A stretch of DNA of 64,000 bases from Actinomycetota bacterium (GTDB lineage Bacteria; Actinomycetota; Acidimicrobiia; Acidimicrobiales; Ilumatobacteraceae), in NCBI GenBank assembly GCA_026393535.1, contig JAPKZY010000105.1, forward strand, positions 1 to 64,000, read 5' to 3'. Below the pieces are notes generated by a model, which saw nothing but the letters and a program-made list of their open reading frames with translations, ran no database searches and had not been told where the DNA came from. Positions within the stretch are counted from its first letter, which is position 1, and every line of letters starts with the position of its first letter. Positions 18,280 through 47,104 of this stretch are shown one piece after another. Both the position numbers and the translations under genes were made by a program.

Positions 18280-19464
18280 CTACTCGGGCGGGCCGATGAC
18301 AACGGAACCGTTGTGACCGCCGAAACCAAAGTTGTTTGAGATGGCTGGCCCAGGAATCCATGGCCGTGCTGCTCCCATAACTAAGTCAATTGTCATTGTC
18401 GGATCAAGTTCTGTGGTGCCTGCTGTCGGCGGAATCAACTTGTGTTGCATGGAGAGCACGACTTGTGCAGCCTCAAGAGCACCAGCAGCTCCGAGAGCGT
18501 GGCCAGTGACGCCTTTGCCGCTTGTGACAGCAACACCACGTGCGCCAAAGACATGAGTCATTGCTGCGGCTTCAGCAGAGTCATTCAATGGTGTCGACGT
18601 TCCGTGTGCATTAACCAATTTCACATCACTTGCTGAGATACCTGCATCGTCAAGAGCAAGATTCATACATGCAATTGCGCCAGTTCCGCCAGGAGCGGGA
18701 GCTGTGATGTGATGTGCGTCTGCGTTGCTGGCAGAGCCAAGGATTTCGCCAAGAATTGTGGCGCCACGAGCGACAGCAAGGTCATAGCGCTCGAGAATGA
18801 ATACTGCTGCGCCTTCGCCCATCACGAAACCATCTCGGGTTGTGTCGAATGGTTTTGACGAGCCTGTAGAAGACAGGGCGGTCATGTTTCCGAAACCTGC
18901 AAGAGAAGTAAGAGTGGCAGCGCATTCTGAGCCGCCGGTAGCAACTGCGTCACAACGACCCCATGCAATTAGTCGCGCTGCGTACCCAATTGCGTGTGTT
19001 CCGGCTGCACATGCTGTGCAGATTGTTTCATTTGGACCTTGCAGTCCGTACTTCATTGAAATAGCTGCGCCCGAGGCATTGGCCATCATCATGGGCACAA
19101 GGAACGGCGATACACGACGATCGCCTTTTTCTAGGCGAATAGTGACTTGTTCTTCCAATGTGTGAAGCCCACCGATGCCAGTGGCAAAGATGGTTCCAAA
19201 ACGAGCAGGGTCCACTTTGATGTCACCGGCTTGGGCAAATGCTTCAGAAGCAGCAGCTAGCGCCAATTGTTCTACGCGGTCTGCACGTCGTGCGTCCTTC
19301 GGAGAGTCGAAGTACGGCTGAGGATCCCAATCGGTAATTTCAAGCGATCGAGTGTTTGTAATTCCGGGCCCCATAAGGCCGTTCCAATACGCGTCTTTTC
19401 CGATACCGCACGGAGCAACGACTCCGAGACCGGTAATTGCAACGCGATGTCCGACACCATTCAT
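18280..19464 (-). CDS. fabF: 3-oxoacyl-ACP synthase II (FabF/KasA type)
   Basis: Elongating condensing enzyme, 394 residues, adding malonyl-ACP to acyl-ACP. Catalytic Cys152 is in TICTACAAGTHAIG; the two histidines are in LVNAHGTSTPLND and GVTGHALGAAGALE; the C terminus has SNNFGFGGHNGSVV. It closes the operon fabD-fabH-fabG-acpP-fabF and follows acpP by 17 bases. Start ATG 19464. Confidence 0.95.
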   Translation of the reverse strand: MNGVGHRVAITGLGVVAPCGIGKDAYWNGLMGPGITNTRSLEITDWDPQPYFDSPKDARRADRVEQLALAAASEAFAQAGDIKVDPARFGTIFATGIGGLHTLEEQVTIRLEKGDRRVSPFLVPMMMANASGAAISMKYGLQGPNETICTACAAGTHAIGYAARLIAWGRCDAVATGGSECAATLTSLAGFGNMTALSSTGSSKPFDTTRDGFVMGEGAAVFILERYDLAVARGATILGEILGSASNADAHHITAPAPGGTGAIACMNLALDDAGISASDVKLVNAHGTSTPLNDSAEAAAMTHVFGARGVAVTSGKGVTGHALGAAGALEAAQVVLSMQHKLIPPTAGTTELDPTMTIDLVMGAARPWIPGPAISNNFGFGGHNGSVVIGPPE

Positions 19465-19481: not shown

Positions 19482-19718
19482 TTACAGCTTGCCGACGATG
19501 ACGTCGAACGCTTGACCAACAGTTTTTACTTCTGCGAGGTCTTCTTCTGGCACTTCAATGCCGAATTCTTCTTCAAGTGCCATTACCAACTCGACAACGT
19601 CGAGCGAATCTGCATCGAGGTCTTCTGCGAAGTTAGCGGTGGGGACGACTTGAGCTGCGTCTACTGAGAGTGTCTCTACTGCGCACTTGACGAAGCGGCT
19701 AAATAGTTCTTGATCCAT
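19482..19718 (-). CDS. acpP: Acyl carrier protein
   Basis: Acidic four-helix protein of 78 residues. The phosphopantetheine attachment serine is Ser38 in [18 protein letters not shown]. It carries growing acyl chains for the surrounding Fab enzymes. The start ATG 19718 has AAGGAG on the minus strand 8 bases upstream, one of the strongest ribosome binding sites in the window, as expected for an abundant protein. Confidence 0.95.
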
Positions 19719-19803: not shown

Positions 19804-20508
19804 TTAGTGACCCATGCCGAGACCACCATCAACAGGCAGGATTGCCCCGGTGATGTAGGCCGCGTCTGGTCCAGCAAGAAACACAACGGCTCCCGCGATT
19901 TCATCCGCCGACGCCATTCGGGCGAGAGGTACTGAGCTCGTGATTTGGTCAAGTTTGTCCTGGCCGAGACTTGCTGTCATGTCTGTTTCAACTGGGCCAG
20001 GAGCGACAACATTCACAGTAATGCTGCGAGAACCGAGTTCTCTTGCGAGCGAACGAGCGAACCCGACGAGCCCTGCTTTAGATGCTGCATAGTTTGCTTG
20101 ACCCGCTGATCCGAACATGCCCACAACGGATGACATCAGAATGATGCGGCCTTTTCTAGCGCGTAACATGCCTTGAGTTGCACGCTTGACGACCCGGAAA
20201 GTTCCTGTGAGGTTTGCGTCAATCACACTTGCAAAATCTTTTTCACTCATTCGCAACAACAGAGTGTCTTTCGTGACTCCGGCATTTGAAACAAGAATTT
20301 CCACTGGCCCAAAGTGCTCTTCTATAGCAGTGAATGCAGCGTCTACCTGAGCAGTGTCTGTGATGTCGCATTTGACTCCAAAAAATTGCGACGGTGGAGG
20401 AGTCGTGTTGTAGGTAATAGCAACTTTGTCTCCCAATGCTGCAAAGCGTTCGGCACAAGCAAGTCCGATGCCTCGTGAGCCGCCAGTAACTAAGACAACT
20501 CTGCTCAT
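19804..20508 (-). CDS. fabG: 3-oxoacyl-ACP reductase
   Basis: NADPH-dependent short-chain dehydrogenase of 234 residues. Cofactor motif VTGGSRGIGLACAERF, NAG in VSNAGVTKDTLLLRM, catalytic Ser and YAASKAGLVGFARSLARELG, and the C-terminal ITGAILPVDGGLGMGH. ATG 20508 overlaps the fabH stop (ATGA); an in-frame ATG at 20520 would give a 16-base overlap and is less likely. It catalyses the first reduction in each elongation cycle. Confidence 0.94.
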   Translation of the reverse strand: MSRVVLVTGGSRGIGLACAERFAALGDKVAITYNTTPPPSQFFGVKCDITDTAQVDAAFTAIEEHFGPVEILVSNAGVTKDTLLLRMSEKDFASVIDANLTGTFRVVKRATQGMLRARKGRIILMSSVVGMFGSAGQANYAASKAGLVGFARSLARELGSRSITVNVVAPGPVETDMTASLGQDKLDQITSSVPLARMASADEIAGAVVFLAGPDAAYITGAILPVDGGLGMGH

Positions 20509-21455
20509 TGTGCGCCCCATCTGACGACGGCGCTGGCAGCAGTCATTCCTGCACCGAAACCAACCATGAGAACCAGGTCGCCATCTTTGGCTTTGACCTG
20601 TCCAAAGTCACCAAACAACGCAAGGGGGATAGAAGCAGATGAAGTATTTCCTGTTTCGTGAACCACGACCGCCACCTTCTCCATCGGCACTCCCAATTTC
20701 TCGCACGCTGAAGTGATGATGCGAATGTTTGCTTGATGGGGTACAACAACATTCAGTTGGTCGACAGTAATACCTGCAGCTGTCATCGACTTTTGTGCGC
20801 TATCAACCATGATGCGTACGGCACGTCGAAACACCTCTTTGCCATCCATATGGACAAAGCCGCCGACTTCGCTATACAGAATTTCCTCGGCACTGCCGTC
20901 TGCATCAAGGTCCCAACCGAGTAATTGGCCATGTCCGGTTGTGCGTTCAAGAATTGCAGCACCTGATCCGTCTGCAAACAAAATGGCTGTGTTGCGATCT
21001 GTCCAATCGACAATTCGCGACAAGCTGTCAGTTCCGATAACAAGAACGCGCTGAGAACCCATTGCAATCAAACCGTGGGCGGTAATCATGCCGTAGACAA
21101 AACCCGAACAAGCTGCGTTTACATCAAATGCTCCACAACGAAGTCCAAGACCATGTTGCACCGTTGCAGAGGTGGCAGGAACAGTTCGATCGGGAGTTGT
21201 CGTGGCAAGGACAAGTGCATCGATACTCAACGGGTCTATTCCGGCCATTTCAATGGCTGCACGACCACTGGCGATACTCAGCTCGGCCGTTGAACCGCCG
21301 ATATGCCGGCGAATGATGCCGGTTCTCTCACGAATCCATTCGTCATTCGTGTCCATCGTTTTTGAAAGGTCGTCATTGGTGACAGTCGTATGACCGAGAG
21401 ATGTGCCCCAACCAATAAAGCGTGCACCGCGAACGTTGTCTGGTATCTGAGGCAT
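20505..21455 (-). CDS. fabH: 3-oxoacyl-ACP synthase III
   Basis: Initiating condensing enzyme, 316 residues, joining a CoA primer with malonyl-ACP. Catalytic Cys116 lies in FDVNAACSGFVYGM, His in VVPHQANIRII, and Asn in HETGNTSSASIPLAL. The N-terminal MDTNDEWIRERTGI is characteristic. It follows fabD by 24 bases and overlaps fabG. Primer preference (acetyl or branched) cannot be told from sequence. Confidence 0.95.
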   Translation of the reverse strand: MPQIPDNVRGARFIGWGTSLGHTTVTNDDLSKTMDTNDEWIRERTGIIRRHIGGSTAELSIASGRAAIEMAGIDPLSIDALVLATTTPDRTVPATSATVQHGLGLRCGAFDVNAACSGFVYGMITAHGLIAMGSQRVLVIGTDSLSRIVDWTDRNTAILFADGSGAAILERTTGHGQLLGWDLDADGSAEEILYSEVGGFVHMDGKEVFRRAVRIMVDSAQKSMTAAGITVDQLNVVVPHQANIRIITSACEKLGVPMEKVAVVVHETGNTSSASIPLALFGDFGQVKAKDGDLVLMVGFGAGMTAASAVVRWGAQ

Positions 21456-21479: not shown

Positions 21480-22655
21480 TTACTTTGTACGCAGCCAAGC
21501 AATTGGCTGTCGTGATGTCACACGTTCACCTTCAACTGCGATGTAACTCTGAACTATTCCTGCAAATGGCGAACGCACTTCTGTTTCGCCGACATGTCCG
21601 ATGAGGCGACCCACTGCAATCGTAGTGCCGTTTGTAATGTCACCAATCGGTGTGAAGACTCCGGCTGAAGGACTAACAACAAGACGTTCAACCGCGAAAA
21701 GGTGTTCGCCTTCGTGTTGACCAGCTGCCAATGGGGCTGATGCGTCGACCCATTCGATGAGTTTGTCTAGTTCGTCGGGAGTTGCAACGCTAATTGTTCG
21801 TGCCGATTGCACCGTGCGCTTGGCCATTCCTGTAAGAACCCCACCAGGACCTAGTTCTACGAAGCCCGTGACTCCAGCATCGGAGAGAGTCAACAGGCAA
21901 TGCTTCCAGCGAACAGGGTTCGATAACTGCGCAGACAAAAGTGATGACCATTCGTCGCCTGCATCGTGTAACGCCGCATCAACATTAGAGACAACGGGAA
22001 CTTCTGTGTCTCGTGGGCTAGCAGCTGCAATAGCAATTCGAAGTCGATCGCGGGCCGCAGTCATAAAGGGTGTGTGAAATGCGCCAGACACTTGTAGTGG
22101 CATCACTTTCTTTGCGCCGAGTTCTTTTGCTACGGCGCCCGCTGCTGCAACGCCAGCGGGAGATCCTGCGATGACCACTTGGCCAGGAGCATTGAAATTT
22201 GCAACCCATACGTCACTGTCGGCACGACGACATGCCACTTCCACAAGGTCATCATCAAGACCGAGAATCGCCGCCATGGTTCCAGGGGATGCAAGGCCGG
22301 CCTCGTGCATGGCATCTGCGCGCTCAACGACCAGACGAACGCCATCATCGAATGACAAAGCTCCCGTTGCGGTGAGGGCGGTGTATTCACCCAAACTATG
22401 ACCAGCACAAAAACTTGGTTCAATTCCTAATCGTTCAACAGCGTCAAGGACCATGAGGCTTGAAACAAAAGTGGTGAGTTGCGCATTGCGGGTATCTCGC
22501 AGAGTTTCTGCGTCAGCATCAAGCAGTAACGAGGCAACATCACGGCCTGCTACCTCTGAGGCTTCATCAACGAGCTCCCAACTTTCGGTATCGGTCCAAG
22601 GTCGGCCCATACCGGGACGTTGCGACCCTTGACCAGGGAATGTAAAGGCAAGCAC
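21480..22655 (-). CDS. fabD: Malonyl-CoA:ACP transacylase fused to a barrel-sandwich (biotinyl/lipoyl-like) domain
   Basis: Residues 1 to about 310 are a standard FabD: TFPGQGSQ, the nucleophile Ser87 in CAGHSLGEYTA, His194 in VSGAFHTPFM and the C-terminal FVELGPGGVLTGM. Residues 315-391 add a second domain with the biotinyl/lipoyl hammerhead pattern: VVSPSAGVFTPIG, GTTIAVGRLIGHVG, EVRSPFAGIVQSYIAVEG, ERVTSRQPIAWL. The turn that would hold the MKM lysine reads GHVGETEV, so there is no acceptor lysine. FabD is normally about 310 residues. It begins with GTG 22655 and a TAAGGT box 7 bases upstream, and heads the fab operon. The extra domain's role is unknown. Confidence 0.9.
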   Translation of the reverse strand: MLAFTFPGQGSQRPGMGRPWTDTESWELVDEASEVAGRDVASLLLDADAETLRDTRNAQLTTFVSSLMVLDAVERLGIEPSFCAGHSLGEYTALTATGALSFDDGVRLVVERADAMHEAGLASPGTMAAILGLDDDLVEVACRRADSDVWVANFNAPGQVVIAGSPAGVAAAGAVAKELGAKKVMPLQVSGAFHTPFMTAARDRLRIAIAAASPRDTEVPVVSNVDAALHDAGDEWSSLLSAQLSNPVRWKHCLLTLSDAGVTGFVELGPGGVLTGMAKRTVQSARTISVATPDELDKLIEWVDASAPLAAGQHEGEHLFAVERLVVSPSAGVFTPIGDITNGTTIAVGRLIGHVGETEVRSPFAGIVQSYIAVEGERVTSRQPIAWLRTK

Positions 22656-22668: not shown

Positions 22669-22745
22669 GACGGCGTGTTGATGGCAATGCGTACTACTCA
22701 TTAGTAAGGCTCTGAAGAGAAGTGCCGATACCATGGTCAACCCTG

Positions 22746-22828
22746 GCCCGAGTGGCGGAATGGCAGACGCGACGGACTCAAAATCCGTTGCTCGAAAGGG
22801 CGTGTGGGTTCGAGTCCCACCTCGGGCA
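22746..22828 (+). tRNA. tRNA-Leu (anticodon CAA)
   Basis: Type II cloverleaf of 83 bases. Acceptor arms GCCCGAG and CTCGGGC pair fully; the anticodon stem ACGGA/TCCGT encloses loop CTCAAAA with anticodon CAA at 22779-22781, reading TTG. The variable arm is GCTCGAAAGGGCGT-like and the T arm is GTGGG-TTCGAGT-CCCAC. The 3' CCA is not encoded (ACCC follows). Confidence 0.95.
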
Positions 22829-22841
22829 CCCAGGCAATCCA

Positions 22842-22847
22842 TACACT
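22842..22847 (+). promoter_or_regulatory. Putative -10 box (TACACT)
   Basis: TACACT lies 8 bases before ATG 22856 of the coiled-coil gene, just after tRNA-Leu. It is a candidate start for the coiled-coil/ANTAR regulator transcript. Confidence 0.35.
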
Positions 22848-22855
22848 GAAGGTGT

Positions 22856-23149
22856 ATGGGACATCGACTAGTGCAACGCCGTCTGTCCCAAGTCTCTGCA
22901 CGTATGCGAGAACTCTCAGAAGAACTTCGTGTGGTTCAAGATCAGATGAGTCAAGTTGTCGATGAAGCCGATGAGAAGTCACTTCGTGCGCTTGTGTCCG
23001 AAACTCCTGCAGCGGCTTTTGAATATCGTGAAGCGAAGAAGCATGCAGACGTAATTCAGCGTCACCATCAGCAGATAATTGCTGAATTGGCTGACCTTGA
23101 GCGGCGAATGAATAGTCTTCTAGATCGTATGAAGGAGCCAAGTGCATGA
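22856..23149 (+). CDS. Small coiled-coil protein of unknown function
   Basis: Protein of 97 residues, almost entirely charged helix with heptad-like leucine spacing (for example RRLSQVSARMRELSEELRVV and the C-terminal AELADLERRMNSLLDRM). No catalytic motif, signal peptide or membrane segment. The stop overlaps the ATG of the ANTAR regulator (ATGA, 23146-23149), so the two are translationally coupled and may interact. I do not recognise a named family. Confidence 0.7.
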   Translation: MGHRLVQRRLSQVSARMRELSEELRVVQDQMSQVVDEADEKSLRALVSETPAAAFEYREAKKHADVIQRHHQQIIAELADLERRMNSLLDRMKEPSA

Positions 23150-23724
23150 GCATTCGAGTAGTCATTGCCGAGGACGAGGCCATCATTCGTCTTGACTTGA
23201 AAGAGACCCTCGAAGAAGAGGGTTACGAAGTTGTGGGCGAAACAGGCCGCGGCGATAAAGCTGTGGAACTTGTACGAGAACTGCGACCTGATCTTGCAAT
23301 TCTCGATATCAAGATGCCGGGCATGGACGGCATTGAAGCTGCTCGGTTGATTACGAAAGATCGCATCTGTGGTGTTCTGGTCTTAACTGCATTCAGTCAG
23401 CGTGAAGTAATTGAACAGGCACGTGATGCGGGCGCACTGGCGTATCTGGTGAAACCGTTTCAAAAGACCGATCTTGTGCCAGCTATTGAAGTTGCTATTG
23501 CTCGCTTCCGTGAAATGCAGGCATTGAACGGAGAGGTTGATGCTCTGGAGGAACAACTAGAGACTCGTAAATCAATTGATCGCGCTAAAGGCATTCTGAT
23601 TGATCAGTGCTCGATGTCTGAATCTGATGCGTACGGTTTTATTCAACGCGGAGCTATGAATCACCGAGCCACCATGAAGGCAGTTGCTGACATGGTGATC
23701 GCTGGCGATCTGCGTCCCGAATAG
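23146..23724 (+). CDS. pdtaR: ANTAR-domain response regulator (PdtaR-like)
   Basis: Two-domain regulator of 192 residues. The receiver has VVIAEDEAIIRLDL, the phosphoacceptor Asp in LAILDIKMPGMDG, Thr in VLTAFSQ and Lys in YLVKPFQKTDL. A helix leads to a C-terminal ANTAR domain with RAKGILIDQCSMSESDAYGF and the AMNHR segment, which binds dual-hairpin RNA to block transcription termination. It resembles mycobacterial Rv1626 (PdtaR), which also lies near polA. No partner histidine kinase is in the window. Confidence 0.9.
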   Translation: MSIRVVIAEDEAIIRLDLKETLEEEGYEVVGETGRGDKAVELVRELRPDLAILDIKMPGMDGIEAARLITKDRICGVLVLTAFSQREVIEQARDAGALAYLVKPFQKTDLVPAIEVAIARFREMQALNGEVDALEEQLETRKSIDRAKGILIDQCSMSESDAYGFIQRGAMNHRATMKAVADMVIAGDLRPE

Positions 23725-47017: not shown

Positions 47018-47104
47018 GTCGAAGTGGCGAAATCGGCAGACGCACCGGCTTAAGGGGCCGGCGCCCGCAAGGGCGTGGGGGTTCAAGTCCCCCCTTCGAC
47101 ACCA
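47018..47104 (+). tRNA. tRNA-Leu (anticodon AAG)
   Basis: Type II cloverleaf. Acceptor arms GTCGAAG and CTTCGAC pair, followed by A and an encoded CCA at 47102-47104. The anticodon stem CCGGC (47045-47049) pairs with GCCGG (47057-47061), giving loop TTAAGGG and anticodon AAG at 47052-47054. Bacterial isoacceptors of this shape normally have GAG (loop TTGAGGG), so position 34 is A rather than G. A TAA reading would need an anticodon stem that does not pair. Confidence 0.92.

Follow-up and report, generated by a model that had tools for sequence, protein, structure and literature searches.

The DNA analyzed, referred to here as the window, is a stretch of 64,000 nucleotides from an actinobacterium of the family Ilumatobacteraceae. 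It includes a fatty acid synthesis operon on the minus strand. The first gene of this operon, fabD-X (21480..22655, minus strand), encodes FabD, the ACP S-malonyltransferase, followed by a biotinyl-like domain that lacks the acceptor lysine, which we call X. The 391-amino acid frame starts at a GTG codon, ends at a stop codon located at 21480-21482, and is free of interruptions. The next gene, fabH (20505..21455, minus strand), is found 24 bases past this stop codon and is followed on the same strand by fabG (19804..20520), acpP, which codes for the acyl carrier protein (19482..19718), and fabF (18280..19464), the last operon gene in the window. The set runs in this order from 22655 down to 18280 and stops against convergent plus-strand genes located downstream of fabF. 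The gene for an AccD6-like carboxyltransferase, which comes after fabF in genomes where X is a stand-alone protein, is not in the window operon. It was found on contig C16 of the same genome (G000:C16, L169:5306-6679), with a LysR-like regulator gene on one side and a citrate-synthase-like gene on the other, both named from their sequences. A tRNA-Leu (caa) gene is located just upstream of the fabD-X start (22746-22830, plus strand), and an open reading frame called at 22737-23186 on the minus strand runs across it and is probably spurious. The window has a second tRNA-Leu gene (aag) at 47018-47104.

Residues 1-305 of the protein (21741..22655, minus strand) correspond to FabD. Residues 2-283 matched the NCBIfam model TIGR00128 with 285.7 bits (cut-off 260.9), and Pfam Acyl_transf_1 matched residues 4-292. 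The motifs GQGSQ (residues 8-12), GHSLGE, which includes Ser87 (codon 22395-22397, minus strand), and GAFHT, which includes His194 (codon 22074-22076, minus strand), were retained and are invariant in 37 of 37 FabD sequences. Judging from these matches, this region is an ordinary FabD with intact catalytic motifs and all the other invariant FabD residues. The FabD proteins of solved structure cover the sequence up to about residue 304, and none of those listed spans the last ~77 residues; the C-terminal extension is therefore real. It consists of a variable linker (residues 306-314, 21714..21740, minus strand) and domain X (residues 315-391, 21483..21713, minus strand). AlphaFold2 predicted a disordered linker at residues 308-320, with confidence below 50. 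The clean domain boundary and intact frame described by an earlier sequence-only reading of the locus were thus borne out.

That reading had also assigned the extension to the biotinyl/lipoyl fold, and the AlphaFold2 model and the profile searches agreed with it. Modeled alone, X was predicted to be all-beta with a mean pLDDT of 92.4, and within the whole protein its pLDDT values were mostly above 86. A single X sequence produced a weak match to Pfam Biotin_lipoyl (E 0.0035, under the gathering cut-off), and the X members included in two Pfam scans (19 and 23 members) also scored under the cut-off of this family. The profile built from the X alignment matched solved structures over nearly its full length, including the methylmalonyl-CoA decarboxylase BCCP 2d5d (E 5.9e-9) and the BCCP of E. 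coli (E 1.4e-7; 1bdo was listed among the PDB matches). Comparison with genuine AccB/BCCP by hhalign resulted in a probability of 98.6% and an E-value of 7.7e-16, with A-M-K of the BCCPs opposite G-P-G. The homology to AccB/BCCP (Biotin_lipoyl, PF00364) extends over the full domain and takes in the AP..G.F motif as well as the last strand, V..GQP; the pattern conserved in X is ER.VVSP.AGVF ... V.S.F.G ... GERV..QPIAWLR. Lipoyl domains matched the X profile as well, with BCCPs aligning most fully, and the firm claim is therefore limited to membership in the biotinyl/lipoyl family, in which profile homology across the whole domain places X. The putative barrel-sandwich fold rests on this homology and on the secondary structure of the predicted model. 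A relationship to YqeB was considered and rejected, because the NCBIfam match was weak and far under the cut-off and profile searches favored BCCP.

Functional biotin carriers have a lysine within an A-M-K-M turn. X has neither the lysine nor this turn. A lysine at the acceptor position was found in none of about 200 X sequences (duplicates included), and the only two present at that position in the alignment set belonged to genuine BCCPs. The absence of the acceptor lysine, pointed out before from the window alone, is therefore general to X. The MKM turn had been described as replaced by GHVGETEV. Alignment of fused X with BCCPs showed a four-residue gap exactly at the AMK(M) turn, and the corresponding tip, GETE (residues 356-359, 21579..21590, minus strand), is four residues shorter than in BCCP and has no lysine. 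By alignment, the turn in fused X is deleted more than replaced. The stand-alone relatives of X retain the turn, often as G-P-G-T/S. Some fused relatives (L193-L195, L197, and L208) have ~20-70 residues inserted behind the GVF motif, close to the site of the BCCP thumb. The idea that X is the AccB of the genome was discarded: TIGR00531 found solely BC-BCCP-type frames in nearly all relatives. The window genome itself has a genuine BC-BCCP with AMKM (L170). X, unlike AccB/BCCP, accompanies FabD, as a neighboring gene or a fused domain, and not BC.

In the GTDB genome collection, 318 locations were confirmed to hold relatives of X, and the named isolates among the best 80 of these 318 include Ilumatobacter nonamiensis and Desertimonas flava. 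X was found in nearly all genomes of the same genus, and its range takes in many families within both the order and the class. The sequence-only reading knew the FabD extension. The survey added that X also exists as a separate gene across the phylum, fusion to FabD being one of its forms, and that it constitutes an apparently unnamed family spread across Actinomycetota. The separate form is a protein of ~80-90 amino acids encoded between fabD and fabH, usually in the arrangement fabD-X-fabH-fabG-acpP-fabF-accD; the fused form was present in 176 examined loci (duplicates included). Outside the class both forms recur: several families have X as a separate gene, and others have the fusion. On the FabD tree, three switches between the fused and separate states are required, of which well-supported branches force only one, and recurrent fusion or fission of X with FabD is likely on this phylogeny. 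X was also located beside fabH without an adjacent fabD (L036, L249, and L264-L266), and it was kept at L187 and L193-L195 with no fabH match nearby. X is not a marker of FabD use in general, as many FabD-positive genomes are devoid of it.

The pN/pS values of X (0.04-0.28) were comparable to those of the FabD part (0.03-0.19), and the linker evolves faster than X, with higher pN/pS, in most pairs. X is under strong purifying selection. One same-genus genome has FabD-X split across two frames (L029 / L159, G018:C357), as a result of a frameshift or an assembly error.

A carboxyltransferase of ~450-490 residues closes the operons of the class that carry stand-alone X. The name AccD6-like is used here by size and fab-locus setting and does not mean strict orthology. 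The protein of the window genome gave better scores with PccB-type chains than with AccD6, with AccD6 4fb8 (473 aa) among its relatives, and it is shorter than the PccB type by ~50 N-terminal residues, its residue 48 aligning with PccB residue 95. Outside the class, the fab-linked carboxyltransferase belongs to other subtypes. In the N-terminal half of the window-genome protein (L169:5306-6679) there is an SSGAD sequence in the place of the SGGAR found in other carboxyltransferases, for example that of L269. Among the readable loci, an accD6-like gene was found downstream of fabF in 22 with separate X and was missing from two, while in those with fused X it was present in two and missing from 73; these counts include related and duplicate loci, and one genome appears twice among the 24 separate-X loci. 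In the fused genomes the carboxyltransferase is located elsewhere and is mostly gone from the operon, and outside the class none was seen near FabD-fused X at L239, L241, and L244-L246; both observations count against a partnership of the two. In family f103 (L248/L269 and L259), X lies directly upstream of a carboxyltransferase at L259 and L269, with fabD, fabH, and fabF absent nearby.

The presence of X (E <1e-9) and of the short carboxyltransferase (profile E <1e-168, a threshold that falls between two separate groups of scores) was compared in 296 genomes of the class. Both were present in 101 and neither in 178. The remaining 17 were discordant, 14 with X only and three with the carboxyltransferase only. 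A Fisher p-value for this co-occurrence ignores kinship and overstates the case, since the genomes are not independent. Two of the three carboxyltransferase-only genomes (G072 and G088) were also without any FabD match, and their fab locus is therefore probably missing from the assembly. Among the 14 X-positive genomes without a clear short carboxyltransferase, some, such as G026 and G235, have a divergent or broken copy. In others none was found; one of these is G146, a genome 85% complete, which stands as a counter-example to the association.

More informative than these totals are losses shared within particular lineages. At L295 and L296 (family f53) and L297 (f45), where FabD branches inside the X-positive clade, fabD, fabG, acpP, and fabF were kept, as was fabH at L295 and L297 (it was not seen at L296). 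The slot behind fabD, however, no longer holds X, and no carboxyltransferase separates fabF from the gene that follows it. In family f20, G256 and G304 have X and the carboxyltransferase, and 15 other genomes have FabD and neither of the two. The X-less FabDs of f20 form a separate long-branched clade, so replacement of the whole operon is possible in this family. When X and the carboxyltransferase are in the same operon, they could also vanish jointly through gene order. The joint losses favor the carboxyltransferase, rather than FabD, as the main partner of X. The epsilon subunit (PF13822) was undetected in 40 of 41 relatives. In other members of the phylum this subunit contributes to assembly, and X may simply take its place. 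No ACC_epsilon match was listed for X in the Pfam scans of 19 and 23 members.

The observed fusion, BCCP homology, lysine loss, conservation, operon linkage, co-occurrence, and joint loss are best accommodated by a model in which X is a non-catalytic component that helps dock or assemble the acetyl-CoA carboxylase of fatty acid synthesis. In the lineage of the window X is fused to FabD and would tether the consumer of malonyl-CoA to its producer. We give this model an even chance of being correct. The biotinyl domain of a carboxylase visits both active sites. Having lost the lysine, X cannot carry biotin at the usual site. It keeps the shape of such a domain and, in the simplest reading, would have retained one of its binding faces. 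It would dock most likely on the AccD6-like carboxyltransferase, possibly in the groove that receives the biotinyl domain, or on the BC-BCCP subunit, and in this way could aid the acetyl-CoA carboxylase that supplies type II fatty acid synthesis. With FabD held near the carboxylase by the flexible linker of FabD-X, malonyl-CoA would then have less distance to cover. The sequence-only reading had suggested that the extension docks FabD to acetyl-CoA carboxylase or to ACP. The link to the carboxylase gained indirect backing, since X and the AccD6-like carboxyltransferase share operons, co-occur, and were lost together; docking to ACP was unsupported.

The fold family to which X belongs is known, and the presumed role of X has a parallel in plants. 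The plant BADC proteins, like X, consist of a BCCP-like domain from which the biotinylation motif is absent. BADC is a non-catalytic partner of plant acetyl-CoA carboxylase that helps BC and BCCP assemble (PMC11926652). The two differ in their settings: BADCs are separate proteins of the multi-subunit carboxylase of plant plastids, whereas X would partner a carboxylase of actinobacteria and in some genomes forms part of FabD. AccE, the epsilon subunit (PF13822), resembles X in being small (~80 aa), non-catalytic, and linked to a carboxyltransferase, in the case of X by genomic association. In T. fusca, binding of AccE to the CT subunit increases Vmax/Km roughly 5- to 20-fold depending on the substrate (PMC7835884). 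The two are nevertheless unrelated families, AccE belonging to ACC_epsilon and X matching Biotin_lipoyl. AccD6 is the fatty acid carboxyltransferase of the M. tuberculosis FAS-II locus (PMC5311964, PMC4949712). As in the X operons, this locus combines fab genes with a carboxyltransferase of ~473 residues, but X is not part of the locus as described. No account of a FabD that bears a biotinyl-like domain turned up in a search of open-licence papers. A broader proposal, which we put forward tentatively and hold somewhat doubtful, is that X is a bacterial counterpart of BADC and, when fused to FabD, physically holds acetyl-CoA carboxylase and malonyl-CoA:ACP transacylase together in a malonyl-CoA channelling unit, widespread in Actinomycetota and previously unnamed. 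In the usual description, type II fatty acid synthesis is run by individual proteins that share malonyl-CoA through solution. If X ties the carboxylase to FabD, a large bacterial phylum would couple the supply of malonyl-CoA physically to its use, and the kind of lysine-less biotin carrier that serves assembly in plant plastids would have a bacterial form. The natural fused, separate, and joint-loss versions are ready comparisons.

Other functions of X can be envisioned. It could serve FabD itself as an internal cap, a dimerisation element, or an ACP-docking element that tunes malonyl transfer, in which case the tie to the carboxyltransferase would reflect shared operon history only. The 176 fused loci, the location of X next to fabD in most others, and the three changes in the FabD tree, by which joining FabD may have recurred, are in keeping with this explanation. 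However, FabD stayed at L295-L297 after X and the carboxyltransferase were dropped, X is found without fabD beside a carboxyltransferase (L259 and L269) or beside fabH (L036), and a linker that is variable and predicted to be disordered is unlike that of a fixed intramolecular cap. We regard a role confined to FabD as rather unlikely. The position of fabH after X in most loci, including the fabD-less L036, L249, and L264-L266, could instead indicate that X partners FabH or another fab enzyme as a scaffold of the initiation step. This is quite improbable: X occurs beside a carboxyltransferase with no fabH at L259 and L269, it persists at L187 and L193-L195 with no fabH match nearby, and the operons at L295 and L297 lost X and kept fabH.

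The carboxylase could also be the target of X in the opposite sense. X may be an inhibitor or regulator that fills the biotinyl-domain site whenever there is too much malonyl-CoA or FabD, a feedback brake of the kind originally proposed for plant BADC. BCCP homology would permit competition for the same groove, and inhibition of plant ACCase was the role initially ascribed to BCCP homologues without the lysine, in earlier work cited in PMC11926652. The later reconstitution and NMR work in the same article favors an assembly role, and one-to-one fusion to a constitutive enzyme would be easier to reconcile with a structural role than with a titratable brake, which makes this function unlikely. 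That X is a decayed BCCP remnant without present function is hardly credible. The residue that defines the catalytic carrier is indeed lost, but the low pN/pS values, the residues invariant across families, the confident predicted fold, and the presence throughout the phylum contradict decay.

Several X-negative genomes rely on a type I FAS instead, and in several genomes of the same order the malonyltransferase was found inside type I FAS-like frames of 2,300-3,000 amino acids, with no discrete FabD (L038, G031:C140; G099, G208, G220, and G283). Weak X matches in the small genomes of family f39 were not confirmed; the fab locus of L303 has no X, and its only match falls in BC-BCCP. FabD-X was also present in contigs titled as Bifidobacterium breve MAGs (L098, L100, L103, L128, and L149). 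These titles look misassigned, and the X of L100 is 96% identical to that of the window.
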